From an uncultured Bacteroidaceae bacterium (GTDB lineage Bacteria > Bacteroidota > Bacteroidia > Bacteroidales > Bacteroidaceae): a DNA stretch of 61,903 nucleotides. The notes beneath the pieces are model-generated. The model saw only the letters and a program-made list of their open reading frames with translations, was not told where the DNA came from and made no database searches. Location of the stretch: the NCBI GenBank assembly GCA_944320785.1, contig CALUIR010000015.1:1-61903 (forward strand). The letters are read 5' to 3'. Position numbers and translations under genes: made by a program. The stretch's first letter is position 1. Each line of letters opens with the position of its first letter. This document shows positions 918 through 39,401 of this stretch, piece after piece.

Positions 918-2195
918 TTATTGCTGGAATTTCACGACGGCCCTTCCGATGAGGCGGTCGTAGCGCCCGCCGAAGGGGCGGTGGTACACGAGTATCATGT
1001 ATTCGTTCTCCGTCTCATACGAGTTGCCCTCCACGGGCAGGGTGGAGCCTTGCGTGCTGCCGTCGGGGACGTAGAGGTACATGTAGTTGTAGGCTCCTTG
1101 CTTGAGGAGTTGCACGGCTTCGTACATCTGCGTCTGCGGGTTGTAGGTCATGCGGCTGGACGCATCGAACCGCCCGTTTGTGAATGCCCCTTGCAGGTAG
1201 AGGCTGCCATCATGGAGGGGCGCATCGTCCCATGCCAAGGCGAAGTGTATGAAGATGTAGTCGGCCTCGGTGTCGTTGTCCTCCGCCTCGTTGTAGCGGA
1301 TGAAGTAGCGTCCGTCCTGGTCCACGTCATAACTGTAGTTGCGCCGGCTTTTGTCGGTGAACAGCACGGCATGGTAATAAGGGTCGAAGAAGCGCACATG
1401 GTCCACTCCCTGTGTGGCATAATGCACGTTGGTCAGTTCGAAGCGGCGGTATTCGTTGCCTGCGTCGAAGATGAGGCGGCGGTTATGCACGTATTGCAAC
1501 TGCCCCGGTTGCTGGTAGGTGGGCGTGATGCCGGTCACCATGTTGTCCCGCCGTTGGTTTTGGAACACTTGCACTTTCACTTCCGATGCCGGGTTGCGGA
1601 TGTCGTAATTGTCGTGGTGGATGCTGAAGCTCACTTGCTGGTGGGTGCTGTTGGTGTCGATGTCGGTGTTGCTGCTCACGGAGGCGGCGATGCCCACTTG
1701 TTGCTCCACTACGGAGAAGCAGGCGTTCAATACATGCTCGCCGCCGTTGTCGTCATCGTAAACGCTCACGACGTAGTTGCCTGAAGCGGTGATGCTCACG
1801 TCTTCGTTGGGGATTTCCAGCGCATAGTGGGTGTAGAGCATGGTGGTGTTGAACGAGTTGGCGTAGTAGTCGATGGTGTTGCCGTTGAATCCGTCCAAAT
1901 AGTCTAGTTCCGACAGCCCCGATGGTTGCCAGTCGGCATTGCAGTGGGTGATTTTGTAAGTGTAGCGGTGGTATTGGTGGCTTAGTTCGTCAAAAGAGAT
2001 TTCGATGTACTCATCTGTGCCTAATTCGATGATGGGCGGCTGTTCCCAATTGCCGTTGGCCACGGTCCTGATGGTCTTGATGCTTTGGGTGAACGCCTTG
2101 TTGCGTTGGGCGTTTGCCGTGCCTGCGGCGCATGCCAGCAGCAGGGACAGCAGGAGGAGGGAACATGTCATGCCGGATGGCTTGATGGGTTGCAT
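918..2195 (-). CDS. Type IX secretion system plug protein (DUF5103 family)
   Basis: About 425 residues with an N-terminal signal peptide (LLLLSLLLACAAGTANA, cleavage before QRNK). The body matches the DUF5103 family: THCNADW, LDYLDGFN, SFNTT and YTHYALE in the N-terminal third, SGNYVVSVYDDD after it, and a C-terminal region beginning LYLQGAFTNG. In Flavobacterium the family member plugs the SprA translocon pore of the T9SS (family knowledge). An ATG at 2195 gives a basic n-region. An alternative ATG at 2171 forms an ATGA overlap with the stop of the upstream regulator gene, so translation is probably coupled. A much longer open frame continues upstream but only shadows the regulator gene and is rejected. 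The window also encodes several T9SS cargo proteins, so the secretion system is clearly in use. Confidence 0.88.
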   Translation of the reverse strand: MQPIKPSGMTCSLLLLSLLLACAAGTANAQRNKAFTQSIKTIRTVANGNWEQPPIIELGTDEYIEISFDELSHQYHRYTYKITHCNADWQPSGLSELDYLDGFNGNTIDYYANSFNTTMLYTHYALEIPNEDVSITASGNYVVSVYDDDNGGEHVLNACFSVVEQQVGIAASVSSNTDIDTNSTHQQVSFSIHHDNYDIRNPASEVKVQVFQNQRRDNMVTGITPTYQQPGQLQYVHNRRLIFDAGNEYRRFELTNVHYATQGVDHVRFFDPYYHAVLFTDKSRRNYSYDVDQDGRYFIRYNEAEDNDTEADYIFIHFALAWDDAPLHDGSLYLQGAFTNGRFDASSRMTYNPQTQMYEAVQLLKQGAYNYMYLYVPDGSTQGSTLPVEGNSYETENEYMILVYHRPFGGRYDRLIGRAVVKFQQ

Positions 2196-4705
2196 ATGTC
2201 GTTGAATGATTTGTCGTAGGGAGTCCCCAGCAGCCGTTTGTATTCCGTGCAGAAGTGGTCGTAGGCGCTTTTTGCCAGCCCTGCCTTCCCGTTCTTCACC
2301 AATACGCTGCATTCCAGGCGTATGGCGTTCTCGTCCGTGGGGTCGAACAGGAAGATGGCGTCGGCTATCCGGGTGAGGAGCTTGGAGTCGGTGAGGTTCC
2401 CGTTCTGCACGATGCTCCACAGCATGTCCTGCACGTGGTTGGCGTAGTCGGCCTTGAAGGGGTCTGCCCATTCTTGGTTGACGAAGGGCAGCGGCAGCCC
2501 TTTGTTGACGAGATGGAGGAGGTCGTACAGCTTGTTGACTTGCACGGCGGTTTGCTGGTGCAGTTCCTTCAGGCTGGCGAATACGGCATAGTAGTCGCTG
2601 AAGAAGGGCGCATGGCATTGGGTGGTCCAGTAGGAGTTGGTGTTGGCCAGTTCGATGCCTTCCAGCCTTTCCAGCAGCACTTTCAGCTTGCGGATGGTGA
2701 CCCGCCGGTTGTTTTGCGCGCTTTCCTCGTTCTTGTCCGGCCACAGGGTCTCGCACAGGGTGGAACTGGAGATTCCTTTCCCGTTCTTCTGCGTGTAGAG
2801 GAAGATGAGGATGAGCGTGTGCCTCAATGTCTTGGTAAACAGTTTGGTGATGTCGTTCCCTTCCTTGTCCCATACTTGGAAGCCGCCTAAGAACAGGATG
2901 GCAGAGCGGCGGGGGACGGGCTGAGGCGTGTATTCCTTGTTGTCGATGGAGATGGCGGCTTGGGGCATGGCTTTTTCCTTCCTTCCCCGCTTTGCCCGGC
3001 GGGCGAGGATGCCTGCCCCGATGGCGGTGATGAGGAGGGCGGATCCGGCGATGCCTGCCCAGGCGGGGAATGCCGGAGCCGCTTGCTGGATGGTGTCGGC
3101 GGCCGCCAAGGGGGGATAGGGGAGCGAGTAGATGCTGACCTGCGACTGTGCTTTCTCGTGGAAGATGGTCACGGCATACAGCATATGGCCCTTTTTGTCA
3201 TAATATAAGGAATTGTATGCGTTGATATCCTCGAATTTGTACGGAATTGTGTCGGCTAGGGCTTTGGACTGCCCGTTGCTGATGTTGAATGATTTCAGCA
3301 CGATGTGGCTGTTGCTTCGGTTGTTGGGGAAGCAAAGCACGTAGAACCTGTTGGCGGCGGAATCGATGACCATGGAGTTGGAGACGGCAAACGGTTCTTG
3401 TGGCTTTCCTAACGTCCACAGCCTTTTTGTCTCCCGTGTGCGGAGGTTGGCTTCATGCAGGTCGTAATAGTTGTAGGGGCCTAAATCCTGCAAGCCGCTG
3501 TGATGCCCGTATCCTCCGAACACCAGCACGGATTGCGCGTCCTTTATCCCGGCGGCGCTCAGGTAGCGGGGCGGGATGGGGGGGTGCATGCCTATCTTTT
3601 CCCATTTGGATTCGTCAGGAGGCAGGCGCAGGAAGTCGTTCTTGTACGTGTACCCTCCATAGCCTCCGAACACGTACAGGCAGGAATCCTCCGGGCAGAT
3701 GAATGCGTTGTGGTGGCTATGGTCTGGATTTTTGGTGTCTTTGTTGGAATGGCTCCATTCACGGGTGGCGAAGTTGAATTTGGAGATGTGCGGGCCGTCG
3801 AAGTCGTAGGACCATAATTCCTCTGTCATCGGATTGTAAATCATCTGGTTGCTGCTGGAATAATAAGGATTTCCTCCCAGCACGTGGAGGGTCTCGGCAC
3901 GGTGGCCGTTGGGGCGGATGGCAAGCACTTGGCATTGGTCGGCAAAGTAGAGCGTCCCGTCTTGCTCGTTGAATGCGGCTTGCACATAGTGGCCTGCCGT
4001 GAAAGACATCTCCTTTTCCCACCGGGCATGCTTGTCGATTTCCCAGACAGGGTTGCATGCTTTGGCCGGGCAGCGGGCGACGGAGTCGTAAACGTCTGTC
4101 ATGGCATGTTCCTTCAGCGGCCAATAGGCTTGCAGCTTGTTGTCCCCGTCCGTGAGCCGGATGTTGCGTATGGCGATGGGGGGGACATCGTAGGAGGTGA
4201 AGTCCGGATGGTCGCAGTATCCGAACCAGAAGCTGTAGTGGAGCAGCTTCTTGTACGGGTAGGGCAGCTTGAGGGTTTCATCGTTGAATGAAACAGTGAT
4301 TTCCTGGGTTTCGGGATGGATCTTGAGGCGCACTTTTGCCCAACTGTGTTTAGGGTATCCTTCCAGCACTTCATTGCTGAATGGGGCGAACGTGCGGTTC
4401 CCTTCGATGAAATTCAAGGATTTGCGCCCGTCCGTGTAGTTGGATACCAAGTCGAAGCTTACGGTGTCGTTGGCGATGATGCGGAAAATGTACCCGTAAT
4501 TATGCAGTTCTGTCCTGAAGCGCAGTTCAAAATCCAATGTGAAGCCTTCCGGGAAGCGGAAGGCTTTGCCGTTGTTCAGTTGCAGGGAGGTCCTTTCCTC
4601 TTTCATGACCTCGTGTGACGCGAAATTCAGCCCGGAAGCGGCATTTTGCGCTTCGGGCAGGATAGCGTGTAGAGATAGCAACAGGAGGAAAGCAAGCTTC
4701 TTCAT
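2168..4705 (-). CDS. Membrane-tethered regulator: periplasmic Kelch-like sensor, TM helix, cytoplasmic SARP-like winged helix
   Basis: 845 residues. Signal peptide 1-19; a concanavalin-like N-terminal module to about 215 (HNYGYIFRI); Kelch/galactose-oxidase-like blades to about 530 (VFGGYGG, VFGGYGHH); one TM helix near 544-566 (AGIAGSALLITAIGAGIL) followed by a basic stop-transfer RRAKRGRK. The cytoplasmic part starts near 598 with GFQVWDKEGNDIT and continues as an OmpR/SARP-type winged helix (TLCETLWPDKNEES, QNNRRVTIRKLK) and a helical BTAD-like tail (YDHFCTEYKRLLG) to the end. The architecture implies a one-component sensor that binds a periplasmic ligand and acts on DNA from the membrane; this is inferred. 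A paralogue of almost the same length lies at 18308-20839, and the locus between them is the obvious target. The gene diverges from 5141 and overlaps or abuts the T9SS plug gene. The ligand is unknown. Confidence 0.85.
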   Translation of the reverse strand: MKKLAFLLLLSLHAILPEAQNAASGLNFASHEVMKEERTSLQLNNGKAFRFPEGFTLDFELRFRTELHNYGYIFRIIANDTVSFDLVSNYTDGRKSLNFIEGNRTFAPFSNEVLEGYPKHSWAKVRLKIHPETQEITVSFNDETLKLPYPYKKLLHYSFWFGYCDHPDFTSYDVPPIAIRNIRLTDGDNKLQAYWPLKEHAMTDVYDSVARCPAKACNPVWEIDKHARWEKEMSFTAGHYVQAAFNEQDGTLYFADQCQVLAIRPNGHRAETLHVLGGNPYYSSSNQMIYNPMTEELWSYDFDGPHISKFNFATREWSHSNKDTKNPDHSHHNAFICPEDSCLYVFGGYGGYTYKNDFLRLPPDESKWEKIGMHPPIPPRYLSAAGIKDAQSVLVFGGYGHHSGLQDLGPYNYYDLHEANLRTRETKRLWTLGKPQEPFAVSNSMVIDSAANRFYVLCFPNNRSNSHIVLKSFNISNGQSKALADTIPYKFEDINAYNSLYYDKKGHMLYAVTIFHEKAQSQVSIYSLPYPPLAAADTIQQAAPAFPAWAGIAGSALLITAIGAGILARRAKRGRKEKAMPQAAISIDNKEYTPQPVPRRSAILFLGGFQVWDKEGNDITKLFTKTLRHTLILIFLYTQKNGKGISSSTLCETLWPDKNEESAQNNRRVTIRKLKVLLERLEGIELANTNSYWTTQCHAPFFSDYYAVFASLKELHQQTAVQVNKLYDLLHLVNKGLPLPFVNQEWADPFKADYANHVQDMLWSIVQNGNLTDSKLLTRIADAIFLFDPTDENAIRLECSVLVKNGKAGLAKSAYDHFCTEYKRLLGTPYDKSFNDICNPSSHPA

Positions 4706-4849: not shown

Positions 4850-4943
4850 CTTCTTTATCTTTAGGTTAGAGATGTGTATCCTTAGGCTAAAGATATACAT
4901 CCTTAGCTTAAAGATGCACATCTTTAGCCTAAGGATGAAGTTC
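4850..4943. repeat. Intergenic palindromic element copy 1: four 21-nt units
   Basis: Four contiguous 21-nt units at 4856-4876, 4877-4897, 4898-4918 and 4919-4939. Each is a near-perfect 19-nt palindrome of the form CATCYTTAG-N-CTAARGATG plus a 2-nt spacer. The array is bounded by CTTCTTTA on the left and GAAGTTC on the right. GC-rich flanks contain GCGGG and GGAAACTT/GGGACTTTC-like motifs at about 4800-4848 and 4950-5010. Because 21 is a multiple of three, the array stays open in several frames and creates spurious ORFs rich in LRLKMHI. It sits between the divergent regulator and GxGYxYP genes. Three more copies occur in this window. Confidence 0.93.
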
Positions 4944-5014: not shown

Positions 5015-5112
5015 TTAATGTTTTGTTAATGCAAGGCGGGCGGATTTCTGCTTATGTCGGGTTGTGTTAATGCTGCGTTGCCTTTGGCGTTAATGCCGCC
5101 ACGTTAAATTTG
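5015..5112 (+). promoter_or_regulatory. Operator/promoter of the GxGYxYP locus: TTAATG direct repeats and -7 box
   Basis: Distal pair: TTAATG at 5015-5020 and 5026-5031 (11-bp period). Proximal pair: TTAATG at 5067-5072 and a degenerate copy TTGCCT at 5078-5083 (again 11 bp), with another TTAATG at 5090-5095. A perfect Bacteroidetes -7 box TAAATTTG lies at 5105-5112, with TTTG at 5083-5086 as a possible -33 box (18-nt spacer). The proximal pair is 38 and 27 bp before the -7 box, the same spacing as in front of the gene at 7838. It is a candidate binding site for the SARP-like regulators; binding is inferred. The ATG follows at 5141. Confidence 0.7.
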
Positions 5113-5140
5113 CCATGCTAACTTATAATGTGACAGACTT

Positions 5141-7666
5141 ATGAATATGGGAAAATGCCTTTTGGGGGCCGGTGTGCTGCTGTTGTTAGGATGTCCTTGC
5201 AGGATGCATGGCCAAGACGTGATAGGGTTATATGATTTGCACTACACGTTGCAGACGGATTTGGGTACGGAAGAAGGCCGCAACGTGGCATGGGACGACG
5301 TGCATTTGGTGTCTGCGCTTCAAGGCATCGTCAACCGCGACGCTCCACGGCTGTATGTCTATTTTGTGGAACGCGACGGAGTGGACATCGATCGTTATTG
5401 GCTTGACAAGTACCGGCGGCGCGGCCAATGGCTTTACCGGAAGGAGACGGCGACTTACACTTCCATTGAAGATTTAGTGGCGGCATACGCAGGCAATGTG
5501 AAAGGCGTCGTGCTATACGACGGGAATGTCCCCTCCACGAGCAATGTCGCTTCCTCCGTGGCGGGCTGCGAGGATTTGCTGCCCGTGCGTTACGACCCTT
5601 CGCCCGGAAGCCTGTATGACCGGCTGGTGGCCCATGGCCCTTGCCTGCCGGTGAAATGCCGGCTGGTGAATGAAGACGGCAGCCCGATGTTCACGGGCAA
5701 AGGGATCATTCCCGGCACGGACCGTCCCAGCACAGGTTCCGTCAAGGCCGACCCCTACATTTGGTATATAGAAAACTATATGAAGCAGGGCAAATGCAAC
5801 ACGGAGTATGCAGGCTACTACATTGACCAGTATTGGAAACAGAAGCCTATGGCGACGAACCGCAACCACCATACGTTGTCCAACCATGACTTCTTCATCA
5901 GCAAACGCGGCTTCTTCTTCGACCTTTCCCCGTGGGGGGACGAGCCGGCGACGGACGACCCCGGGCAACCTGTCGGCATCGACTTGGCTACCTTGAAAGA
6001 AATGCTTTTGCTGGCCTATCATCAGAATGGCGGTGAACGCTTCTGCTACATTGGCGGCTTCCCGGCATGGGCCTACAAATACACGATGCATGCCGGGGGC
6101 ATGCACGACGATGTGCCGACCGAATGGGAATTCAGCCGCCTGATAGGTGCTTACAATGCCTTCAAGGATGCGGATGCCATTGGTTACGGCGCATTGGCCA
6201 ATGCTTCCTTCTGGCAACATTTCCCTTTGGAGGAAGAATATCCCCAGCCATGGGTGACCCATGCGCAATTGCAGGAAAGGGGGCTTCTGACGGCGGATGG
6301 CAAAGTCAACACGGGCGGGAAGCAGTTCATCATCTTTTATGTCGGCGACTATGACGCATCTTCGTGGGTGAGCCAGATGGCCTCCGTGAAATGGGACGAC
6401 CCGGCCCGTGGCAAGCTGCCCTTGATGTGGTCGGTAAGCCCGGTTTTGGAAGAACGGGTGCCTCATGCTTTGCACTACATGAGGACGACGGCCACCGGGA
6501 ATGATTACTTTGCTTCTGCCGACAATGGGGCGGGTTACCTCAATCCCGGCATGTTGCAGGAGCCGCGTCCTTTTTCCGGGCTGCCCTCTGGCACAGGAGC
6601 ATGGGCTCGCCATTGCATGCCATATTATAAAAGGTGGGGCATCACGGTGACTGGCTTTATCGTGGATGGCTATGCGCCGGGACTGGACAGGAGCGGCCTT
6701 GATGCTTATGCCTCCTTCAGCCCGAACGGCATTGTCCCGCAGAAAACCCCTTCCATGGCATGGCTTTATGGCAACATGCCAATACTCCAGGCAGACCTTG
6801 ACATCAACGACGATGACCCGAAAGTGGCGGCTTCCCGTATTGTGGAACGGGTGAAGGAACGTTCCGCCCGTTTGCCGTTCCATTGGTTCCGAAATATCTT
6901 GAAAAACCCTTCCTGGTATGTGGAGGTGATGGACGAGGTGGCCCGGCTCGATAAAGACATTGTGCTGCTCGATGCCCCGTCGTTTTTTGAATTGTTGCGC
7001 CTTTATTTGAAGGAGCAACATCCTTTTGCCGGAGGGGAAGGGACAGAGGAAAACCCGTTTCTGGTGGCAACACCTGAGCAGTTTGACCATATCCGTGATT
7101 ATCGTGATTGCTGTTTCCGCTTGGAAAGCGACTTGGATTTCTCCGGCTATGTGCGTGAAGACGGGCAACCGTGGTGGCCGCTTGGAGAATGGGGCGGCGG
7201 TACAGGCGCTTTGGAACGCTTCAGCGGTGTTTTTGACGGAAACGGGCATACTATTCGGAATCTGTCTGTGGAGAGGAAGGCTCACGATTTGAGCATCTTC
7301 GGCGTGACGGAAGGAGCCGTGATTAAGGATTTGAACGTGGAGCATTGCACGGTTGTCGGGGAAGGGCGTTTGGGAATTGTGACAGGCGCGGCCTTTTCCA
7401 CCCGTTTGCACCGTGTGGCATCCACGGATTGCCGTTGTGAGAACCGTTTGTCAGAACACGGATCTAATGCCGGAGGTCTGACCGGCCCGCTTTTTGCATC
7501 AGAAGTGGTTGCCTGCTCAGTACGTGGCGGGTATGTTTATGCGAAAGACTGTGCAGGCGGGATATCCAGTTCGATGGATTCGGACAGCAGTATATCCGAC
7601 AGTTATTCAACGGCAGAAGTAGAGGGCATCAGCCATGTGGGGGGCATTGTAGGCAAGGCGGATTAA
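5141..7666 (+). CDS. GxGYxYP-family putative carbohydrate-active lipoprotein with C-terminal GLUG repeats
   Basis: 841 residues. The N-terminus carries a lipobox (LLLLG-C18), so it is probably a lipoprotein. Residues about 25-610 match the GxGYxYP family: an N-terminal domain (DVHLVSALQGIVNRDAPRLY, VVLYDGN) and a core with the signature variant GAGYLNP at 463-469. The family is listed as a putative glycoside hydrolase of unknown substrate, so the reaction cannot be stated. Residues about 636-841 are GLUG-type repeats (FSGVFDGNGHTIRNL, GGIVG) very similar to the next gene, but they stop abruptly at GGIVGKAD with no T9SS sorting domain. The stop codon lies inside the next gene's TTAATG operator, suggesting a fusion or truncation by duplication. 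It is the first gene of the locus, and a second GxGYxYP protein is at 15118. Confidence 0.8.
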   Translation: MNMGKCLLGAGVLLLLGCPCRMHGQDVIGLYDLHYTLQTDLGTEEGRNVAWDDVHLVSALQGIVNRDAPRLYVYFVERDGVDIDRYWLDKYRRRGQWLYRKETATYTSIEDLVAAYAGNVKGVVLYDGNVPSTSNVASSVAGCEDLLPVRYDPSPGSLYDRLVAHGPCLPVKCRLVNEDGSPMFTGKGIIPGTDRPSTGSVKADPYIWYIENYMKQGKCNTEYAGYYIDQYWKQKPMATNRNHHTLSNHDFFISKRGFFFDLSPWGDEPATDDPGQPVGIDLATLKEMLLLAYHQNGGERFCYIGGFPAWAYKYTMHAGGMHDDVPTEWEFSRLIGAYNAFKDADAIGYGALANASFWQHFPLEEEYPQPWVTHAQLQERGLLTADGKVNTGGKQFIIFYVGDYDASSWVSQMASVKWDDPARGKLPLMWSVSPVLEERVPHALHYMRTTATGNDYFASADNGAGYLNPGMLQEPRPFSGLPSGTGAWARHCMPYYKRWGITVTGFIVDGYAPGLDRSGLDAYASFSPNGIVPQKTPSMAWLYGNMPILQADLDINDDDPKVAASRIVERVKERSARLPFHWFRNILKNPSWYVEVMDEVARLDKDIVLLDAPSFFELLRLYLKEQHPFAGGEGTEENPFLVATPEQFDHIRDYRDCCFRLESDLDFSGYVREDGQPWWPLGEWGGGTGALERFSGVFDGNGHTIRNLSVERKAHDLSIFGVTEGAVIKDLNVEHCTVVGEGRLGIVTGAAFSTRLHRVASTDCRCENRLSEHGSNAGGLTGPLFASEVVACSVRGGYVYAKDCAGGISSSMDSDSSISDSYSTAEVEGISHVGGIVGKAD

Positions 7667-7770
7667 TGTTTTGTTAATGGGGGCGGCGGGAAAAGTGCCG
7701 TCCCTTTTTGGGGAACCCCTGTTATTAATGCTCTGTTAATGCCGTTGTTTACCATGCGGCAATAACTTTG
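7663..7770 (+). promoter_or_regulatory. Second copy of the TTAATG operator/promoter
   Basis: Distal pair TTAATG at 7663-7668 and 7674-7679; proximal pair at 7725-7730 and 7736-7741. Both have an exact 11-bp period. A perfect -7 box TAACTTTG is at 7763-7770, 38 and 27 bp after the starts of the proximal repeats. There is no consensus -33 TTTG; the second proximal repeat occupies that position, as expected for activator-dependent promoters. The first repeat overlaps the stop codon of the upstream gene. The layout matches 5015-5112, with the distal pair shifted by 10 bp (about one helical turn). The implied leader to the ATG at 7838 is about 60 nt. Confidence 0.7.
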
Positions 7771-7837: not shown

Positions 7838-9127
7838 ATGAAAAAACAGATTTTTACATTTTGTGCATGTGTGGCAATCGGCCAATGGATGGCGGCTCAA
7901 GAAACAGGTGATTTGTATGCAGGCGGAAGCGGCACCCGCACTGACCCTTACCTGATAGAAACCGAGGAGCAGTTTGATGCCATCCGTGAGAACAGGGCTG
8001 CGTATTTTAAACTGATGGCTGATTTGGACTTTAGTTCGTATGTGAAAGAAGGCGGTTGGTGGCCTCTTGGCGAATGGGGCGCCGGTGATGGTGATGCGCA
8101 ACGTTTCAGCGGGACCTTTGACGGCAACGGGCACAAGATATCCAATCTGCTGGCACGCCATGAGGGTGACGATGGCGCACACGACATGAGCATCTTTGGC
8201 GTGGTGGACGGCGGTACAATCCGTAATCTGCTTATTGATAATGTGACGGTTGTCGGTGGAGGACGTTTAGGTATCCTTTCCGGGCAGACACGGAATGCCA
8301 CCATAGAACAAATTGGCGTGATGAACAGTTCTTGTTCCAACATCGGGACGGGTTCCAATGCCGGCGGTGTGACTGGCCCTTGCGCAGGAACTACGACCAT
8401 CATCAACTGCTACACCGTGGATTGCACCATTTCAGCAGCTTCTCCTCATGAAGAAGGTGCGGAATGGACCGGCGATGCTGTAGGAGGAATTACGAGTTCA
8501 GGACAGGCAACGATTATGTATTGTTATTCAACTTCAACAGTGGAGGGAAAGACGAACATCGGCGGCATCATCGGTGCCAATGATGGGGCAACGGTTTATA
8601 ATTGCTTGTCGCTGAACAAAAATATTGTAGGTGAGGCAGAAGTGACACACCGCATTGTAGGCAAACGAAACGGCGGCGACGTGGCCGACAATTACGCACA
8701 TTCATCGGTGCTGGTCAATGGTGCGCCTGTGACAGAAGATGTTGGTCTCTCCATGGACAACGGTGAAACGGTGGAAGAACTCACCGAAAGCTTCTATGTG
8801 GATGAATTGTACTTCGATTTTGATGAAGTATGGACGTTGGATTCCAACATTTCTCCTTATCCTGTGTTCAAATGGCAGAGCAGCACGTCAGGCATCAGCG
8901 AAATAGCTGCTGAATCTCCTTTCAAGGTGTATGTTTCAGGCGGTAATGTCCGTGTGGAAGGCTTGAACGGTGGCGAGACGGTAAGCGTTTACACCTTAGA
9001 CGGTGTCTTAGTGGAAGAAATGAAGGCCGTTGGCAACGAAGAAACGCTTTCTTTGCCCGGAAGCGGATTCTATGTAGTGACGGTTTTGGCCAACGGGAAA
9101 GCAGAATCTTTTAAAGTTCTCAAGTAA
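7838..9127 (+). CDS. Secreted GLUG-repeat protein with T9SS sorting domain
   Basis: 429 residues with a Sec signal peptide (to about residue 20, MAAQ). Residues about 28-270 hold GLUG-type repeats (FSGTFDGNGHKISNL, GGVTGPC, VGGITSSG, IGGIIGAND) that probably form a right-handed beta-helix. They closely match the C-terminal third of the preceding GxGYxYP protein, including the WWPLGEWG block. Residues about 360-429 form a T9SS type-A sorting domain (GETVSVYTLDGVLVEE, LPGSGFYVVTVLANGK, FKVLK), so the protein should cross the outer membrane by T9SS and reach the surface. The function is probably adhesion or glycan binding; no catalytic residues are recognisable. It has its own copy of the TTAATG operator and a terminator-like hairpin just after the stop. 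Confidence 0.82.
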   Translation: MKKQIFTFCACVAIGQWMAAQETGDLYAGGSGTRTDPYLIETEEQFDAIRENRAAYFKLMADLDFSSYVKEGGWWPLGEWGAGDGDAQRFSGTFDGNGHKISNLLARHEGDDGAHDMSIFGVVDGGTIRNLLIDNVTVVGGGRLGILSGQTRNATIEQIGVMNSSCSNIGTGSNAGGVTGPCAGTTTIINCYTVDCTISAASPHEEGAEWTGDAVGGITSSGQATIMYCYSTSTVEGKTNIGGIIGANDGATVYNCLSLNKNIVGEAEVTHRIVGKRNGGDVADNYAHSSVLVNGAPVTEDVGLSMDNGETVEELTESFYVDELYFDFDEVWTLDSNISPYPVFKWQSSTSGISEIAAESPFKVYVSGGNVRVEGLNGGETVSVYTLDGVLVEEMKAVGNEETLSLPGSGFYVVTVLANGKAESFKVLK

Positions 9128-9140
9128 TACGAGTATGAGA

Positions 9141-9179
9141 AAGGGAAATCGGTATCCTTCCGGTTTCCCTTTTGTTTGT
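9141..9179 (+). terminator. Probable intrinsic terminator after the GLUG gene
   Basis: Arms AAGGGAAATCGG (9141-9152) and CCGGTTTCCCTT (9160-9171) pair with one wobble around a 7-nt loop, followed by a T-rich stretch. It separates the 7838 gene from susC, which appears to have its own start region. Confidence 0.6.
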
Positions 9180-9238: not shown

Positions 9239-9284
9239 TAAATTTGTTTTTTTTCCTGAAAGATTCCGGCTTTTTTCAGGAAAA
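9239..9284 (+). promoter_or_regulatory. -7 box and leader hairpin upstream of susC-like gene
   Basis: A perfect -7 box TAAATTTG lies at 9239-9246; only a weak -33 candidate (ATTG, 9218-9221) precedes it. The transcript would begin close to an 11-bp perfect inverted repeat, TTTTCCTGAAA (9251-9261) and TTTCAGGAAAA (9274-9284), with a 12-nt loop. It may be a 5'-end stabilising hairpin, an attenuator or an operator. There is no TTAATG repeat here, so susC may be controlled differently from its two upstream neighbours. Confidence 0.5.
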
Positions 9285-9365
9285 ATTTTCGGATTATGTG
9301 CGTATCCTTTTCCATGAAGGCGTGCCGGGCAGATATAGAATAATTGTTTGACAAATCAACAAGAC

Positions 9366-12300
9366 ATGGATAATGTGAATAGGAAATTTCGGATATTCCG
9401 AAAGCAGTTTGCATGCTGCTTGGGGCTTTTCCTGCTGGTGTTTGCAGGAATTCCTTTGTCGGCAGCAGGACAAGTGAGAACGGTTTCAGGAACCGTCACG
9501 GATCAATCGGGAGAGCCTCTTCCTGGAGTGAATATATTGTGCGAAGGGACGGCAATGGGGACGATAACGGACATTGAGGGTGCATTTAGCCTGCAGCTTC
9601 CGGCTGGCAGTACGACATTGCGCTTTTCGTTAGTTGGTTTTGAGGCTGTGAACGTTTCAGTTGGAAACAAAACCGTCATCAATGTGGTGATGAAGGAAGA
9701 AACACAGCTTATCGATGAGGTGGTAGTAGTGGGTTACGGCACTCAGAAGAAGGCCACACTGACGGGTGCCGTCAGTTCAGTTGGTTCAGATGAGTTGCTG
9801 GTAACTCCTTCTTCCAATGTGCAAAACATGATTGCAGGCAAGTTGCCGGGCGTGCGTATCCAGCAGCGTACCGGCGAGCCGGGCAGTTATGACGCGAAGA
9901 TGGACATACGTGGATTGGGTACGCCTTTGATTGTCATTGATGGTGTGGTGAGGGACGTGGCCGATTTCCAACGTTTGGAAGCGAATGAGATAGAGAGCAT
10001 TTCCGTGCTGAAAGATGCTTCAGCAGCCATTTACGGCATGCGTGCTTCCAACGGCGTGTTCTTGGTGACCACCCGCAGGGGAAAAGAAGGGAAAACACAG
10101 ATAGATTACACGGGAAGTGTGGGATTCCAAAATCCATCTGGCCTTCCTGATGTACTGGATGCAGTGCAATATGCGGAATTGGTGCGTGAGGCAGATAAGA
10201 ACATGGGACGTGGCATTGATGCCACTTTCACGTTGGAGGATGTGGAACGCTTTCGTCAAGTGGGCGGGACAGATTGGTATGGTTTGGCCATGGACAACTT
10301 TGTGCCTCAGACCCATCATAACATCACGGCCAGCGGGAGTGGCGAGCGTTCTCAATATTTTGTGTCGTTCGGTTATTATGGCGAGGATGGCATTTGGAAA
10401 ACAGGTGATTTGAATTACCATCGTTATAACATACGTTCTAATTTGGGCTTCGACATCACACCGAACTTGAAAGTGGAAATGTTGATTAGCCTTATGAGCG
10501 ACAAGAAGAACCAACCTTATAAAGATACATGGGAACAGTTCAAGGCCATCTGGATGCTGAAGCCTACGGAAACGCCTTACGCAAACAACAATGAGAATTT
10601 CCCTAATGATGTCATGTACGGGTTGAACCCGTTGATGATAACGGATGCGGACAAGGTGGGTTATAAGACTTTTATGAACCGCACGCTGAACACTACGTTC
10701 TCATTGACCTACGATGCTCCTTTCCTTAAGGGGCTGAGTGCAAAGTTCCTTTATGGCTTTGATTACAGCAATAACCAGCAGAAGGAATACCAAAAGCAAT
10801 ATACGTTGTATAATTATGATGTCGGGCAGGACATTTATACGCCGCAAGTATATTCATCGCCTTCTTCCATCCGGCGGAGGTCATGGGAAGGCTTGCAGCA
10901 CCAGTTGCAGGCTTCGCTGAATTACGAGCGTTCATTCAACAAGAAACATAATTTGAAGTTGCTTCTCCTTTACGAGCAGAGTTCCAGCGAGGAAGACAAT
11001 ATTTGGGCAAAGCGGAACTTTGAGATGGATGCCGTGGACGAGATTTTCGCCGGTTCAGAGGAGGATCAGATGGGATCTGCTGATGCGGCAAATATTTTCC
11101 GTGTCACGAATATGGGTCTTGTGGGGCGTGTCAATTACGACTACATGTCAAAATACATTGCCGAGGTGAGCTTCCGTTACGATGGGTCGTCTAAATTCGC
11201 GAAAGGACATCGTTGGGGATTCTTTCCTTCTTTTTCTGTCGGTTACAGGATTTCAGAAGAAAGTTTCATAAAGGATGTTGCGCCTTTGTCGTTTATTACG
11301 AATTGGAAACTGCGTCTGTCATACGGCGTTATGGGCGATGATGGTTCATCTTCCTATCAGTATTTGGCAGGGTATGACTATCCGGGCGCAAGTTATGTGT
11401 TTGGTGATGAAGTGTATAAAGGATTGGGATTCAGGGGAATTCCCAATGAACTGATTACATGGTACACATCTAGGACTTTGAATGTCGGTACGGACATCGA
11501 TCTTTGGAACGGCTTGCTGTTCGGGCAAGTGGACTTCTTCTGGCGTTACAGGGACGGCCTATTGGGGAAACGAAGCGGCGAGGTTCCTGGCACGTTGGGT
11601 GCCGAATTGCCGGAAGAAAACTTGAATGAAGATTTGTACAAAGGCTTTGAGATTGTTTTGGGGCATCGCAACCGGGTGAGTGATTTCACTTATTCTGTCG
11701 CCTTGAATTTTGCGTTGACCCGTCGTCAGAACCGGTATTTGCAGGAAGGCGATGCGGTGAATTCTTATGACCGTTGGCGCAACAAATACACGGATCGTTA
11801 TTCAGACATGGGTTGGGCTTATGGTTCGGAAGGACAATTCACCTCGATGGAAGACATTTGGAACTCCCCGATACAAGATGGCCAAGGCGGTGCTACCCAG
11901 TTGCCCGGCGACTGGAAATATGAAGATTGGAACGGTGACGGTATCATTGACAACAATGACGTTTATCCCAATACCTATGAACATATGAACGACAACGGTA
12001 ATCCGAAAATGACTTTCGGCGCCAGTCTTTCAGCTGAATGGAGAGGGCTTGATGTCAACTTGTTGTTCCAAGGCGGTGCAGGCTTCAATGTCGTTTATTT
12101 TGAACAGTTGCAATATCCTTTGTGCTTTGGCGGCAATGGGTTGGCTCACTTCTATGATCGTTACCATCAGGATGAGAATGGTAACTGGATACCGGGTCGT
12201 TGGCCTACCACGCGGGATGCTGGTTCTTACAGCACGAACTATGCCCGATGCAAGCAAACTACTTATGATGCTTCTTATCTTCGCTTGAAAAGTATGGAAA

Positions 12301-12491
12301 TCGGTTATACAATTCCGCAGAAGATAACGCGGAAGTTCAAGGTGGATCGTTTGAGGGTATTTGCGAATGGTTACAACCTCTTTACAGTGTCAAATTTGGA
12401 CTTTGTTGACCCGGAACACCCGGAAGGTACCTATGGTTATTTGTATCCTATTATGAGGAATTTTAATTTTGGAGTGAATCTGACTTTCTAA
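9366..12491 (+). CDS. SusC/RagA-family TonB-dependent outer-membrane transporter
   Basis: 1041 residues from the ATG at 9366 (a TTG 18 nt upstream is also in frame but less likely). A signal peptide is followed by the carboxypeptidase-regulatory-like domain (VSGTVTDQSGEPLPGVNI, FSLQLPAG), the SusC signature DEVVVVGYGTQKK, the plug (MIAGKLPGVRIQQ, DIRGLGTPLIVIDGVVRD, SISVLKDASAAIYG, ASNGVFLVTT) and a long beta-barrel ending in aromatic NFGVNLTF. It imports an oligosaccharide (or other ligand) captured by its SusD partner, powered by TonB (family knowledge). SusD starts 12 bp downstream, the usual pair arrangement. The substrate cannot be read from the sequence. Length and domain order are typical. 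Confidence 0.95.
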   Translation: MDNVNRKFRIFRKQFACCLGLFLLVFAGIPLSAAGQVRTVSGTVTDQSGEPLPGVNILCEGTAMGTITDIEGAFSLQLPAGSTTLRFSLVGFEAVNVSVGNKTVINVVMKEETQLIDEVVVVGYGTQKKATLTGAVSSVGSDELLVTPSSNVQNMIAGKLPGVRIQQRTGEPGSYDAKMDIRGLGTPLIVIDGVVRDVADFQRLEANEIESISVLKDASAAIYGMRASNGVFLVTTRRGKEGKTQIDYTGSVGFQNPSGLPDVLDAVQYAELVREADKNMGRGIDATFTLEDVERFRQVGGTDWYGLAMDNFVPQTHHNITASGSGERSQYFVSFGYYGEDGIWKTGDLNYHRYNIRSNLGFDITPNLKVEMLISLMSDKKNQPYKDTWEQFKAIWMLKPTETPYANNNENFPNDVMYGLNPLMITDADKVGYKTFMNRTLNTTFSLTYDAPFLKGLSAKFLYGFDYSNNQQKEYQKQYTLYNYDVGQDIYTPQVYSSPSSIRRRSWEGLQHQLQASLNYERSFNKKHNLKLLLLYEQSSSEEDNIWAKRNFEMDAVDEIFAGSEEDQMGSADAANIFRVTNMGLVGRVNYDYMSKYIAEVSFRYDGSSKFAKGHRWGFFPSFSVGYRISEESFIKDVAPLSFITNWKLRLSYGVMGDDGSSSYQYLAGYDYPGASYVFGDEVYKGLGFRGIPNELITWYTSRTLNVGTDIDLWNGLLFGQVDFFWRYRDGLLGKRSGEVPGTLGAELPEENLNEDLYKGFEIVLGHRNRVSDFTYSVALNFALTRRQNRYLQEGDAVNSYDRWRNKYTDRYSDMGWAYGSEGQFTSMEDIWNSPIQDGQGGATQLPGDWKYEDWNGDGIIDNNDVYPNTYEHMNDNGNPKMTFGASLSAEWRGLDVNLLFQGGAGFNVVYFEQLQYPLCFGGNGLAHFYDRYHQDENGNWIPGRWPTTRDAGSYSTNYARCKQTTYDASYLRLKSMEIGYTIPQKITRKFKVDRLRVFANGYNLFTVSNLDFVDPEHPEGTYGYLYPIMRNFNFGVNLTF

Positions 12492-12503
12492 TTTGTGACA
12501 ATT

Positions 12504-14297
12504 ATGAAAATGAAAAAGATATTGGCCTCGGTAGTTGCATTGGCATTGTTGCATTCTTGCGACTATTTAGATGTGCCACCTATTAATATAATACAAGATG
12601 AGTCGATTTTCAATTCGGAATCGGGCATTAAGTCTTACTTGACAACTCTTTATTATGATTTGCCAGTGGAGGATTTCCGATTTACCCAGCAAGGGTTCAA
12701 TGTTTCCGGGAAAGGCGGCGCACGTTTGCCGCATGTGGCAGGTGAAGCCATGTGCAGCACGGCAGACGATATATCTTCCATTGGTGACGGTACGTGGTGG
12801 GGATGTTGGGATTATGGGAAGATACGCAGGGTAAACTATTTCATCCAGCAGTTCCCGGATTACAGTTCTGGCTTTTCGCAAGTCTTTGCCGATGCTTGGT
12901 TGGGAGAGGCTTATTTTATCCGTGCATACTGTTATTTCGCCATGGTGAAACGTTACGGCGGAGTGCCTCTTTTGGAGGAACCTCAGGAATATACGGGCGA
13001 TTTGGAGGCATTGCGTGTGCCGAGAAATACAGAGAAGGAATGCTATGATTTTATTGCCGAGGATTTGGACCGTGCAGCTCGTCTGCTGCCGGAAGATGAA
13101 TCATTGCTGGGCAAAGGAAGAGCTACGCGTTACGCAGCCTTGGCCTTGAAGTCGAGGGCGATGCTGTATGCTGGCTGTATAGCACGGTATGGCCATGTGG
13201 ATAAGGACGGTCTTGTAGGTATTGATGCATCCTTTGCTGACCATTATTTTGGCTTGGCGTACAGTGCTGCCAAGGAGATTGAGTTGTCGAAAAAGTATTC
13301 ATTGTATCGGAAAAATGCCGATAAAGAGAAGAACTTTTCGGAGTTGTTCTTGGCAGATGAAAGCCCTGAGAACATATTTGTGAAGTATTTTGCCCGCAAT
13401 GTCAATGCCCACGGATGGGATGTGTATTTCATACCTTACCAGTATCGTGGAACAGGTTACTCGTCTGGCATGAATCCATCGTTGGAGTTCGTGGAGATGT
13501 TTGAGAGGACGGATGGGACACCGGCTAATTTCGCGCAAAGGTCGCAAGGCGTTTATTTCGACGACCCGGCTGATTTGTTCCAAGGCATGGATGCCCGTTT
13601 CGGAGGATCTATCATTTATCCGAATGCTCTGTTTAAGGGAGAACCTTGTTCCATTCAGAAAGGGCTGATTATTGAGGATGGCTCAAAGCGGGAGAATGCA
13701 TCTGATTACGAGAGTGCCATTTATACGGCGGATGACGGTCAAGAATACCATATCGTTGGCAAGAGTGGCTGTGGCAATTATTCTGGCAATATGACAGGTT
13801 TCTTTGTGCGCAAATATTTGAATGAAAGTTTGCCTGCGGATGAGGTGTTGGAAAATTATTCAGAGCAGCATTGGATTGATTTCCGTTATGCAGAGGTTCT
13901 TTTGAACGGCGCGGAAGCGGCAGTGGAAATGCAGCAGCATTTAGATAGCGCGTTGATATGGATTAATGATATCCGTGATCGGGCTGGCATCAAATTGCTG
14001 ACGGCTTCAGAACTGACGGTTGACAAAGTCCGCCATGAACGCAGGATAGAATTGGCGTTTGAAAACCAAGCTTATTGGGATTTGCGGCGTTGGCGGATTG
14101 CCGACCAGGAAATCGAGGCAAAGCAGTACACCGGCTTATGCCCGTATTTTGATATCAATCACCAAAAATATGTATTTGAGGAAGTTCCGGCCAATAATTA
14201 TTATTACACGTTTGACGTGCAGATGTATTATGAAAGGATTCCGGATGCTGAGATTGCCAAGAACAAGTTGTTGATACAAAATCCGTATTATAATTAA
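12504..14297 (+). CDS. SusD/RagB-family surface glycan-binding lipoprotein
   Basis: 597 residues from ATG 12504 (an in-frame GTG at 12495 is less likely). Lipobox LLHSC within the first 20 residues. The N-terminal SusD-like helical repeats are visible (DAWLGEAYFIRAYCYFAMVKRYGGVPLL) and the C-terminal RagB/SusD region ends with the conserved block WIDFRYAEVLLNGAEA, LLTASELTVDKVRHERRIEL, AYWDLRRWR. It forms the lid of the SusC transporter and binds the glycan at the cell surface (family knowledge). Immediately downstream of susC and followed by a DUF3823 lipoprotein, so the three genes form one transport unit. Confidence 0.95.
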   Translation: MKMKKILASVVALALLHSCDYLDVPPINIIQDESIFNSESGIKSYLTTLYYDLPVEDFRFTQQGFNVSGKGGARLPHVAGEAMCSTADDISSIGDGTWWGCWDYGKIRRVNYFIQQFPDYSSGFSQVFADAWLGEAYFIRAYCYFAMVKRYGGVPLLEEPQEYTGDLEALRVPRNTEKECYDFIAEDLDRAARLLPEDESLLGKGRATRYAALALKSRAMLYAGCIARYGHVDKDGLVGIDASFADHYFGLAYSAAKEIELSKKYSLYRKNADKEKNFSELFLADESPENIFVKYFARNVNAHGWDVYFIPYQYRGTGYSSGMNPSLEFVEMFERTDGTPANFAQRSQGVYFDDPADLFQGMDARFGGSIIYPNALFKGEPCSIQKGLIIEDGSKRENASDYESAIYTADDGQEYHIVGKSGCGNYSGNMTGFFVRKYLNESLPADEVLENYSEQHWIDFRYAEVLLNGAEAAVEMQQHLDSALIWINDIRDRAGIKLLTASELTVDKVRHERRIELAFENQAYWDLRRWRIADQEIEAKQYTGLCPYFDINHQKYVFEEVPANNYYYTFDVQMYYERIPDAEIAKNKLLIQNPYYN

Positions 14298-15117: not shown

Positions 15118-17094
15118 ATGATTATGGATGTAAAGTCAAGTGTATTGTTATTGGCGTTGGGCATGGCAAATGTATGTGTTGCCATGCCGTACATGACCTC
15201 AGACGGAGGCGGTTCAGTGCCGGAAGACGCTTTGTCGTTGGTGATGGATGAATCAAGCGTGTCGGTGGTTTATGACCCTAACGGGACGGCCATGTTCGCG
15301 GATGGAGGAATTCGTGGTACAGGTGATGGCCTGACGTTGGATTTAGGCGAAGTGGATTTCGGGGACGGCGGTTATAACACGGTGTGGGTGGAAATGGCCA
15401 ATATCGCGAAGCCGCAGGAAGGGAATGGCTTTGATTTCTATTTGGATGACATGCTTCTGGAGCCGGACACGGACTTCACGATAGGCCAAGTGCTTCCCCA
15501 TTTGGATACCTATGAATCGGACAAGCAGCCTCAAAGCGGTTTGTTTTTTAAGAATGAGAATGTGCCGTTGGAGCAGATTTCAGTGTTTGATGTGCGTGGG
15601 GATGACAGCTATGGGAAAATAACGGCGGCCGTAGCCCAAGGGGTGTTGAACCAAGAGCGGGCAGAAGTATATTTGGTGTACGAAGACCATCATCAAGTCC
15701 AGTTTGAGGATGTTTACGGGAAAGAGGGCGAGACGTGGACGCTTCTCCGGGATGAATGCCCGGTGAGCAAGTATGCCGGTTTGGCCACTTTGGTGGAAAA
15801 ATACAAAGGGCGTTTCCAAAAGATGGTTCTTTGGGACCCGGAAAAAGAATGGACATGGTGTCTGGCGCAGATGATATGCGCCCAGCAGCAAGGGATACCG
15901 GTGACGGAAGATATACGCGATTTCTTCCGTAGCGAATTGCAATGGGATATCCCTTGTGAGGACATTCCCGGCAAATGGGCCACGAAGTTGGAAGCTTACC
16001 AATGGGCCATTGACAATCTGGCAGATGGTTGCCACAAAACGTTGAGTTTCTCTGCTGGCTTGCGGAGCGATTACCTTTCAAATCCGTGGAAGATATATGA
16101 TTATGCCGTGGCTTCACGCGGGTTTGTATTCTTTTTGCAGAACTCGGTGCCGGAAGAATGCGACATGATACAGAAGATTTGCCGGAAAATGGGTTACCAG
16201 CCCGGTTCGTCCACGATGGGCTATGGCGCGGAGCATGACGGTGACGGCCTGAACAAGGCTACGAATCCTTACAATGTAGGGTTCATGGTGAGCGATTATT
16301 ATGCTAACGGGAGTTTCTGGTGTTCTTTCCCAAACAAGTCGTTCCAGCAGCGCAAGGGGAAGGCCATCGAGGCAAAGCCGGGGAAGATATACGTGAGCTT
16401 CCTGTGGAGCGATGGTGACAACGTGCAGTTTGATTCTAACCAGATGTATAACATGTTCAAGAATGCCAAAGGGCGCGGTGAAGTGCCTGTAGGCATGACC
16501 ATGGCGGCATCCTTGCAGGAACTGAACCCGGTGTTGCTGGAATTTTTCTACAAGAACTTGACGCCTAATGATGAATTGGTGGCAGGCCCTTCTGGTTTCC
16601 AGTTCATTTACGGCGATAGCTATAATGGTGATACTTATGAGCAATGGCTGAAGATGAACCATGACTGGATAGAAACTGCGGGTTTCCATACTGCCTGCTT
16701 GTGGAACACGACGGACAAGGAGCGTTTCGGCCGCTATATGGAAACGTGTGGGCTGCAAGGCGTTTTTGATGGTTTTGAGAACAACAAGGAACGTTACGAG
16801 ACGGGCGTGGACGGTGAAGGTATTGTCTGCATCATCCAAGGGGCGCACTGCTCCGTGGAGGGTGATGTTTACAAGGACTTGGCCAGCGTGAAGCCTGACA
16901 GCAAGCGGCCCGTGTTCCGCAATGTTTACCTGATAGCTGCCAACTACGGGGGGGCGGATGGTTATGAAAGGCTCATCCGTGAGTTGCAACGTCTGGAGAG
17001 TTATTTGCCCAACACGTATGAGTATCTGCTTCCCATGGACTTGTGCGCCACGCTGAAAGAATACCTCGAAAAGGAGGGGGGCATCCATGAATAG
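15118..17094 (+). CDS. GxGYxYP-family putative carbohydrate-active protein, second copy
   Basis: 658 residues. Signal peptide of the SPI type (SVLLLALGMANVCVA), with no lipobox and no T9SS tail. Residues about 60-140 form a CBM6-like beta-sandwich (LTLDLGEVDFGDGGYNTVWVEM, FDFYLDDMLLEPDTDF). The rest matches GxGYxYP: N-terminal block (SYGKITAAVAQGVLNQERAEVYLVYED), DYAVASRGFVFFLQ, then KIYVSFLWSDGDNVQFDSNQMYNM and the signature region PSGFQFIYGDSY. The first ATG is at 15118 and another is in frame at 15124. The family's reaction is unknown; the sugar-locus context and the CBM-like module suggest glycan degradation. It overlaps the next gene by 8 bp, so the two are translationally coupled. It is diverged from the 5141 protein, not a recent duplicate. 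Confidence 0.8.
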   Translation: MIMDVKSSVLLLALGMANVCVAMPYMTSDGGGSVPEDALSLVMDESSVSVVYDPNGTAMFADGGIRGTGDGLTLDLGEVDFGDGGYNTVWVEMANIAKPQEGNGFDFYLDDMLLEPDTDFTIGQVLPHLDTYESDKQPQSGLFFKNENVPLEQISVFDVRGDDSYGKITAAVAQGVLNQERAEVYLVYEDHHQVQFEDVYGKEGETWTLLRDECPVSKYAGLATLVEKYKGRFQKMVLWDPEKEWTWCLAQMICAQQQGIPVTEDIRDFFRSELQWDIPCEDIPGKWATKLEAYQWAIDNLADGCHKTLSFSAGLRSDYLSNPWKIYDYAVASRGFVFFLQNSVPEECDMIQKICRKMGYQPGSSTMGYGAEHDGDGLNKATNPYNVGFMVSDYYANGSFWCSFPNKSFQQRKGKAIEAKPGKIYVSFLWSDGDNVQFDSNQMYNMFKNAKGRGEVPVGMTMAASLQELNPVLLEFFYKNLTPNDELVAGPSGFQFIYGDSYNGDTYEQWLKMNHDWIETAGFHTACLWNTTDKERFGRYMETCGLQGVFDGFENNKERYETGVDGEGIVCIIQGAHCSVEGDVYKDLASVKPDSKRPVFRNVYLIAANYGGADGYERLIRELQRLESYLPNTYEYLLPMDLCATLKEYLEKEGGIHE

Positions 17095-18020: not shown

Positions 18021-18215
18021 CATGCGGGTGGAAACTTCCATCCACCCGCATGACTTCTTTATCTTTAGCCTAAGGATGTACATCCTTAGGCTAAAGATAC
18101 ACATCCTTAGGCTGAAGATGCACATCCTTAACCTAAAGATGAAGTTCTTGCGCGGGCGGGCGGGATTTTCCATGCGGGCAGATGGGACTTTCCGCGCAGA
18201 CGGCCAAGGTTTCTT
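18021..18215. repeat. Intergenic palindromic element copy 2: four 21-nt units plus GC-rich arms
   Basis: Units at 18060-18080, 18081-18101, 18102-18122 and 18123-18143, same consensus as copy 1. The left flank is a 12-bp perfect inverted repeat, CATGCGGGTGGA (18021-18032) and TCCACCCGCATG (18041-18052). The right flank repeats GCGGGC...GGGAnTTTCC twice (about 18151-18202). This copy lies between convergent genes, so the element is not tied to promoters. Confidence 0.92.
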
Positions 18216-27000: not shown

Positions 27001-27172
27001 TATGCGGGCAACAAACCCGGTTTTCCCGCGCGGCTTCTTTATCTTTAGGTTAAAGATGCACATCCTTAGGCTAAAGATGCACATCCTCAGGCTAGAGATG
27101 TACATCCTTAGCCTAGAGATGAAGTTCCCAAGCGGGCAACTGGGATTTTCTTCCCTTGCAAGCGGAAGTTTG
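27001..27172. repeat. Intergenic palindromic element copy 3: four 21-nt units
   Basis: Units at 27040-27060, 27061-27081, 27082-27102 and 27103-27123, bounded by CTTCTTTA and GAAGTTC. Flanks contain GCGGGCAAC and GGGATTTTC-type motifs (about 27001-27035 and 27130-27172). It lies between the divergent GH28 and mntH genes. Its right flank runs into the presumed -33 region of mntH, so here the element may shape promoter activity. The rest of 26874-27229 shows no gene. Confidence 0.92.
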
Positions 27173-39169: not shown

Positions 39170-39401
39170 GGGAACTTCCGTTCAACCGCATGGGTTGTCC
39201 GGCTTTCCCGTGTGGAAAGTTCGGTTTGCGCCGTCGGCTTCTTTATCTTTAGCTTAGAGATGCATATCTTTAGGTTAAAGATGTGCATCCTTAGCCTAAA
39301 GATGCACATCCTTAGGTTAGAGAAGAAGATTCTTTGCCGCATGTTTGGATGTTCCTATGTCGGCGGGTTGAAGTTTCCATGTGGGCGGGCGGGAGTTTCC
39401 A
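39170..39401. repeat. Intergenic palindromic element copy 4: four 21-nt units
   Basis: Units at 39244-39264, 39265-39285, 39286-39306 and 39307-39327, after CTTCTTTA as in the other copies; the right end is slightly decayed (AGAAGAAGATTC). Flanks carry GGGAACTTCC, TTTCCCGTGTGG, GTGGGCGGGCGGG and AGTTTCC-type motifs. It lies between the divergent TPR-AraC gene and lepA. The remainder of 39047-39437 holds only the lepA promoter. Confidence 0.92.

Follow-up and report, generated by a model that had tools for sequence, protein, structure and literature searches.

Two promoters of a polysaccharide-utilisation locus

We analysed a stretch of 61,903 nucleotides (contig CALUIR010000015.1 of assembly GCA_944320785.1), referred to below as the window, from an uncultured Bacteroidaceae bacterium. 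It holds a polysaccharide-utilisation locus (PUL) comprising a SusC/SusD pair, a DUF3823 protein and two GxGYxYP genes (GxGYxYP being only a putative glycoside hydrolase), and the locus is flanked by two paralogous regulators that are 45% identical. Our subject is a set of regularly spaced TTAATG repeats upstream of the open reading frames (ORFs) that start at 5141 and 7838, and the relation of these repeats to the regulators.

Upstream of both ORFs the original prediction had placed a distal and a proximal pair of repeats, each with an 11-bp period, and every copy and distance that it gave checks out. The proximal repeats start at 5067/5078 and 7725/7736, in both cases 38 and 27 bp before −7 boxes at 5105 and 7763; the distal pairs lie 90/79 bp (promoter 1) and 100/89 bp (promoter 2) before the box, and among these copies only TTGCCT at 5078 is degenerate. 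The proximal arrays are, however, larger than the pairs described. A further half-site starts 15 bp before each −7 box, as an exact TTAATG at 5090 and as a degenerate TTTACC at 7748, and each proximal array is therefore a triplet with spacings of 11, 12 and 15 bp. The elements are as follows.

5015–5031, plus strand: distal repeat pair of promoter 1, TTAATG-N5-TTAATG (5015/5026), 90 and 79 bp before the −7 box
5067–5072, plus strand: proximal half-site 1 of promoter 1, TTAATG, 38 bp before the box
5078–5083, plus strand: proximal half-site 2 of promoter 1, degenerate TTGCCT, 27 bp before the box
5090–5095, plus strand: proximal half-site 3 of promoter 1, TTAATG, 15 bp before the box, overlooked earlier
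5105–5112, plus strand: −7 box of promoter 1, TAAATTTG
7663–7679, plus strand: distal repeat pair of promoter 2 (7663/7674), 100 and 89 bp before the box, overlapping the stop codon of ORF 5141–7666
7725–7741, plus strand: proximal half-sites 1 and 2 of promoter 2, TTAATG-N5-TTAATG, 38 and 27 bp before the box
7748–7753, plus strand: proximal half-site 3 of promoter 2, degenerate TTTACC, 15 bp before the box
7763–7770, plus strand: −7 box of promoter 2, TAACTTTG

The −7 consensus of Bacteroides fragilis is TAnnTTTG, with TTTG near −33, and a −33 motif was not identified in Flavobacterium johnsoniae (both from excerpts of PMC7366714); the −7 consensus is also given as TANNTTTGY (PMC12632263, excerpt). 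The box alone is weak evidence, with 39 occurrences in the window against 31 expected, and a scan for sigma-70-type promoters was uninformative (five found, 4.5 in shuffled sequence). The exact pair TTAATG-N5-TTAATG, by contrast with its shuffled controls, occurs three times in the window (5015, 7663 and 7725) and not once in 100 dinucleotide-preserving shuffles. When two mismatches are allowed the window yields seven matches to the pair, unremarkable against 5.4 expected. Across the whole 2.57-Mb genome, an assembly of 84% completeness, there are four exact pairs and none of a reversed-pattern control. The fourth pair (contig C22, position 30181) lies 157 bp upstream of a GH92 gene.

Around the two promoters the locus is arranged as listed here.

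2168–4705, minus strand: regulator 1, with a hydrophobic N-terminal helix, a beta-rich domain, Kelch, a transmembrane-like helix (residues 548–571), and a SARP-type winged helix plus BTAD-like helices (about 600–838)
5141–7666, plus strand: GxGYxYP putative glycoside hydrolase, first gene after promoter 1, its C-terminal region related to the 7838 protein
7838–9127, plus strand: secreted protein with a type IX secretion (T9SS) sorting tail, a relative of the 5141 protein's C-terminal part
9139–9173, plus strand: terminator-like hairpin between the 7838 gene and susC
9348–12491, plus strand: SusC-like TonB-dependent receptor
12495–14297, plus strand: SusD-like protein
15118–17094, plus strand: second GxGYxYP putative glycoside hydrolase
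18308–20839, minus strand: regulator 2, the paralogue of regulator 1 (45% identical); its listed ORF start is 21004 and the likely ATG is at 20839

The 5141 and 7838 proteins are 45% identical over 229 residues, and the former ends without a sorting tail. By its sequence the 5141/7838 region looks like a duplicated gene-plus-promoter cassette of which the first copy is truncated. The susC gene has a TAAATTTG box at 9239 that is not accompanied by TTAA repeats. The window also carries four arrays of a different, 21-bp unit built on the near-palindrome CCTTAGGCTAAAGAT (4859–4936, 18061–18140, 27041–27120 and 39245–39324). Allowing up to three mismatches, this unit has 28 matches in the window, one of them outside the four arrays, compared with 0.9 expected; the genome holds 25 exact copies, and a period of 21 also appears among the triplet words of other loci.

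A spacing rule shared with relatives

We gathered loci by the regulator alone, which gave 58 loci with regulator relatives from several families of the phylum. In these, triplets of mixed 4-mers were scanned without bias at periods 8–24, and TTAA at period 11 came out on top (27 matches in 19 loci), followed by ATTA and TAAT, both of which overlap TTAA; the best remaining entry reached six loci. The discovery set for counting comprised 62 loci, namely 56 of the 58, the window and L039–L043, of which 61 had been fetched for the family of the flanking regulators. L065 and L089, which are the same loci as L041 and L042, were excluded from the counts; in the 4-mer scan L065 was used and L041 was not.

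We then counted TTAA-p-TTAA-d-TAnnTT[TC]G for each combination of period p and distance d. Five cells of the discovery grid stood out, (11,15) with 14, (11,27) with 13, (11,26) with 12, (12,15) with nine and (11,4) with eight, all other cells holding 0–3. The (11,4) cell is made up of close Labilibaculum/Marinifilum promoters plus L046. The first four cells correspond to two layouts, 11-11-15 and 11-12-15, the latter being that of the window. Because the layouts were first seen in this set, these four cells were fixed beforehand and the count was repeated on 45 other loci, reduced to 44 by removal of L203, which equals L068. The replication counts were two, nine, three and seven for (11,15), (11,27), (11,26) and (12,15), respectively, the next cell being (12,27) with three. 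Together the four fixed cells hold 21 matches, compared with 0.65 expected from the remaining cells; the mean over all 462 cells is 0.206. Three of the replication loci, L195 (81–87%), L197 (73–76%) and L222 (73% identical stretches), are distant orthologues of discovery loci, and L204–L208 represent other regulators of two discovery genomes.

The conserved code is thus TTAA-11-TTAA-11/12-TTAA-15-TAnnTTTG. The expectation that the motif would be kept in relatives holds for the spacing, which peaks in both sets, and fails for the word: the conserved core is TTAA, mostly followed by T or G, and we rejected TTAATG as the conserved form. The exact TTAATG pair is present in 29 of 61 genomes, the window's own included. 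It was likewise rejected as a diagnostic, since the 60 relatives contain 46 matches as against 76 for the reversed control (44 and 53 without genome G046). At 28 exact-pair loci of relatives that were checked (L005–L032, one per genome, one of them from the family-bearing genome G055), none had a −7 box at 26/27 bp.

Promoters were next defined by a strict rule, requiring at least two of the three half-sites to be exact, or the Labilibaculum variant. This gave 33 promoters in 29 of the 62 discovery loci. They precede GH92 (14), SusC (10), GH125 (two), GH43 (two) and, once each, GH95, GH2, GxGYxYP and the 7838 gene, with no clear gene in one case. Labilibaculum and its close kin account for seven of the ten SusC cases, and L070 is nearly identical to L101; such near-copies were retained, and the 33 promoters therefore represent fewer independent events. 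The replication set contributed 16 promoters, spread over 10 of its 44 loci. When both sets are pooled, 32 of 48 promoters are found no more than 500 bp from a regulator ORF, in stretches that account for 5.2% of the bases. The proposed clustering of the motif near genes for Kelch–transmembrane–SARP proteins is therefore borne out in the corrected TTAA form, although it extends to only 34 of 93 regulator loci.

The layout was found at 19 of 49 GH92 ORFs in regulator loci (two of the 19 sit at almost the same place in L045 and are probably one gene) and at 0 of 27 from relatives where the family was not found. For this control, 30 loci were taken from 39 genomes with GH92 and three from family-bearing genomes were removed; the control loci are shorter and less A+T rich, TTAA occurring at 3.55 per kb as against 5.96 per kb in the regulator loci. 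Within the window's own genome, the GH92 promoter on contig C1 and its counterpart in G001, a genome of the same genus, each carry two triplets of 11-bp repeats, with the last half-site of the proximal triplet 15 bp before TAATTTCG.

Distal arrays are also shared. An 11-bp TTAA pair lies 45–220 bp before the box at 15 of 32 discovery promoters (one of the 33, L062:19172, was left out of this count) and at 9 of 16 replication promoters; other periods reach at most four in either set. Bacteroides nordii and B. salyersiae have nearly the same distal offsets as the window, 91 and 101 bp compared with 90 and 100, and there the offset of 101 precedes a GH92 gene 68% identical to that on C22. With an assumed helical turn of 10.5 bp, 11 distal–proximal gaps cluster (Rayleigh p = 0.0026), as do eight less related ones (p = 0.012); clustering is also obtained with a turn of 11 bp and not with one of 10.0 bp (p = 0.2). 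Four of the six far gaps in the replication set, worked out by hand, fit this phasing, L196 and L205 do not, and in L207, L209 and L231 the distal array is close to or continuous with the proximal one. Whole-turn phasing of the distal arrays is suggestive.

A sequence model, R1, was built from 20 promoters, none of them from this genome. Searched against the window's own genome alone at E ≤ 10, with 150 of 576 candidates scored, it returned 14 matches (best E 0.013), of which seven fall at four promoters: the GH92 promoters on C1 and C22 and the window sites 7722, 7661 and 5014. A search of 393 genomes of the order was run with strict filters, 14 candidate stretches being scored per genome. 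At E ≤ 0.003 R1 matched in 11 of 29 genomes with the regulator family and in 22 of 364 without (Fisher p = 3.3e-6); at 25 bits or more the figures were 5 of 29 and 1 of 364. Fetched loci of two of these 22 genomes, L182 (G422) and L183 (G195), carry the strict layout at 9867 and 17473 and at 5428 and 171, respectively, and the G422 match scores 26.9 bits with R1.

The regulator family and its predicted structure

The regulator family is not common: it was found in 3 of 61 genomes among relatives and in 29 of 393 genomes of the order. A third paralogue in the window's genome, on C1, adjoins another GH92 gene and has a counterpart with the same gene neighbourhood in G001. An AlphaFold2 model of the regulator, made with 44 sequences, has a mean pLDDT of 88.9 and a pTM of 0.64. 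The predicted order is an N-terminal hydrophobic helix, a beta-rich domain, Kelch (also found by Pfam), the helix 548–571, and a C-terminal winged helix (about 600–700) followed by seven further helices. Helix 548–571 we read as transmembrane, a topology suggested by the model; a transmembrane-like hydrophobic stretch is present in 44 of 44 members, and 41 of 44 have a hydrophobic N-terminal stretch. The beta-rich domain, where Pfam is silent, may at a guess be lectin-like. In both window regulators Pfam shows only Kelch-type domains at E ≤ 0.01, and neither kinase nor receiver.

When the C-terminal part was modelled alone (m3f0ae041d449; pLDDT 94.6), six PDB entries matched at E ≤ 0.001, all of them AfsR or EmbR chains. 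The earlier description of the flanking regulators as SARP-like thus agrees with the predicted fold, which at this threshold matches SARP chains only. For the DNA-binding domain, no relative of solved structure emerged from sequence searches, which yielded Kelch or chance matches only. In the presumed recognition helix conservation is strong, with N68, V72 and L77 in 43 of 43 members and R or K at position 70; such a helix would suit a conserved TTAA core.

The same C-terminal SARP-type domain is joined to other N-terminal parts at L127–L131 and L175–L181, among them LamG in L127; the L131 protein is short and has no Pfam domain. At L128–L130 a neighbouring ORF resembles, by eye, a NapC-type cytochrome fused to a formylglycine-generating-enzyme-like domain.

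Interpretation and comparison with known systems

We think it likely that the repeats are operators of membrane-anchored SARP-type activators of Bacteroidota that switch on PUL promoters. The original prediction had called them the operator of an undescribed transmembrane activation system, and the layout, the linkage and the predicted fold speak for this; 'operator' itself still names an inferred role. In the mechanism that we propose, the N-terminal sensor, made up of the beta-rich (perhaps lectin-like) domain and the Kelch propeller, would lie outside the cytoplasm and be joined by one transmembrane helix to a cytoplasmic C-terminal DNA-binding domain of AfsR-like type (OmpR-type winged helix plus BTAD). 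The ligand of the sensor would probably be a fragment of a glycan. Once it is bound, two or three of the regulator's cytoplasmic domains would occupy adjacent TTAA half-sites, spaced by one turn of the helix, and from the last half-site, which starts 15 bp (a 7-mer and 8 bp) ahead of the −7 box, the activator would recruit the primary sigma factor, replacing the −33 element. The distal array, which where present lies mostly 4–13 helical turns farther upstream, may add cooperative binding. In the window, the flanking regulators would presumably serve the two promoters described here.

Several observations weigh against this reading. There is no array specific to susC, which a strong terminator-like hairpin divides from the 7838 gene, and neither window promoter is perfect, each having a degenerate half-site in its proximal array. 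A promoter passing the strict rule is found in only 34 of the 93 regulator loci (10 of 44 in the replication set), and in none of the seven loci L175–L181, fetched for relatives with other sensor types; loci without a strict array may use other half-sites or other target genes, or may lie on cut contigs. In its own-genome search R1 missed the array at 5067–5112, and two of the seven other matches, on C5 and C23, were read, found to lack the layout and taken as chance. No R1 match at E ≤ 0.003 was obtained in 18 of the 29 family-carrying genomes, the window's own among them, and matches did occur in the 22 of 364 genomes where the family was not found. Promoters used to train R1 are present in two of the 11 positive genomes; in G200 the match is itself such a promoter, and in G066 the three matches lie elsewhere. 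The strict layout occurs twice in each of the G422 and G195 loci, the family not being found in either genome. The fold match, finally, is moderate (TM-score 0.56–0.62 by query length, root-mean-square deviation about 6, 14% identity), Pfam and NCBIfam find no DNA-binding domain (BTAD, Trans_reg_C) in the window regulators at E ≤ 0.01, and among 43 members BTAD is weak in 11 (best E 0.0031) and Trans_reg_C appears in one (0.082).

The G422 and G195 loci also speak for a rival reading, in which the arrays are operators of another linked regulator, for example of the AraC, ECF or hybrid two-component type, and the SARP-like proteins are bystanders. PULs often hold several regulators, and the SARP-like proteins are only presumed to bind the arrays. 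We nevertheless consider this unlikely: the loci were collected by the SARP-like regulator alone, from several families of the phylum, the promoters concentrate close to its ORF (32 of 48 within 5.2% of the bases), the arrays are laid out as published for SARPs, and the regulator is predicted to fold like one.

It is comparably improbable that the two window promoters are decayed former operators that no longer work here, an explanation that would be compatible with membrane-anchored SARP-type control in the family at large. The degenerate proximal half-site in each promoter and the end of the 5141 ORF at the distal array of promoter 2 would fit such decay, but the distal pairs are exact, their offsets are nearly those of B. 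nordii and B. salyersiae, and both regulators are intact ORFs. That the repeats are merely an A+T-rich promoter feature of glycan-degradation genes (UP-element-like or nucleoid-protein sites) with no dedicated regulator seems very improbable. In its favour, the word TTAA is a palindrome rich in A+T and is more frequent in the regulator loci than in the GH92 control. Against it, only period 11 (with its variant 12) and distances of 15 and 26/27 (4 in Labilibaculum and kin) stand out, and the layout is absent from all 27 loci of the control, which is, however, smaller and less A+T rich.

If membrane-anchored SARP-type activators do act at these promoters, the SARP family, known for activators of antibiotic pathways in actinomycetes, would extend to another phylum and another job, beside alpha-mannosidase and SusCD genes. 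The spacing code would allow some targets to be predicted from sequence for a regulator family that has had no annotation to date, and the findings point to a mode of turning on glycan degradation in Bacteroidota that seems not to have been described. How an activator that is fixed in the membrane makes use of two arrays lying far apart is a further question that can be tested. We lean, with less assurance, towards the broader view of a whole class of so far unknown PUL regulators, namely membrane-anchored SARPs with exchangeable sensors (Kelch, LamG in L127, short in L131) that replace the −33 element at primary-sigma promoters and bridge two phased arrays while fixed in the membrane.

Known SARPs are soluble, with an N-terminal DNA-binding domain; side-by-side occupation of their repeats and a contact with sigma region 4 are further SARP traits. 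The N-terminal position is described for AfsR in excerpts of PMC10936776, which also state the SARP rule that direct repeats recur every 11 bp and that 8 bp separate the 3′ one from the −10 element. The SARP-style repeats proposed earlier agree with this rule, a TTAA starting 15 bp before the box being a 7-mer plus 8 bp, where counting the half-site as a 7-mer is our choice and where the window arrays have 12 bp as their last spacing and one degenerate half-site each. AfsR-type Streptomyces SARPs and mycobacterial EmbR thus share with the present regulators the predicted winged-helix plus BTAD fold and, with the 7-mer counted, 11-bp direct repeats of which the last lies 8 bp from the −10/−7 element. 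Unlike these actinomycete proteins, the regulators here carry the DNA-binding domain at the C-terminus, behind a transmembrane-like helix and a Kelch sensor, and their arrays combine a Bacteroides −7 box with TTAA half-sites, triplets and often a second, distal array. Searches of the open-licence literature, mostly of abstracts, returned no description of a membrane-anchored SARP system in Bacteroidetes, and one may exist elsewhere; a survey of transmembrane regulators that stresses Bacteroidota gave no hit for SARP, BTAD or Kelch in a term search of its main text (PMC10269533).

Two other kinds of system offer parallels. The hybrid two-component and SusR-type regulators of Bacteroides are membrane-bound, have a propeller-like sensor and control SusCD and glycosidase genes, features that recur here; the window regulators differ from hybrid two-component systems in having no kinase or receiver by Pfam and a SARP-like output domain. 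Like the ToxR/CadC type, they are inferred to unite in one chain a sensor on the outside, a single transmembrane helix and a winged helix in the cytoplasm. In ToxR and CadC, however, the DNA-binding domain is N-terminal, whereas in the regulators described here it is C-terminal and accompanied by BTAD.

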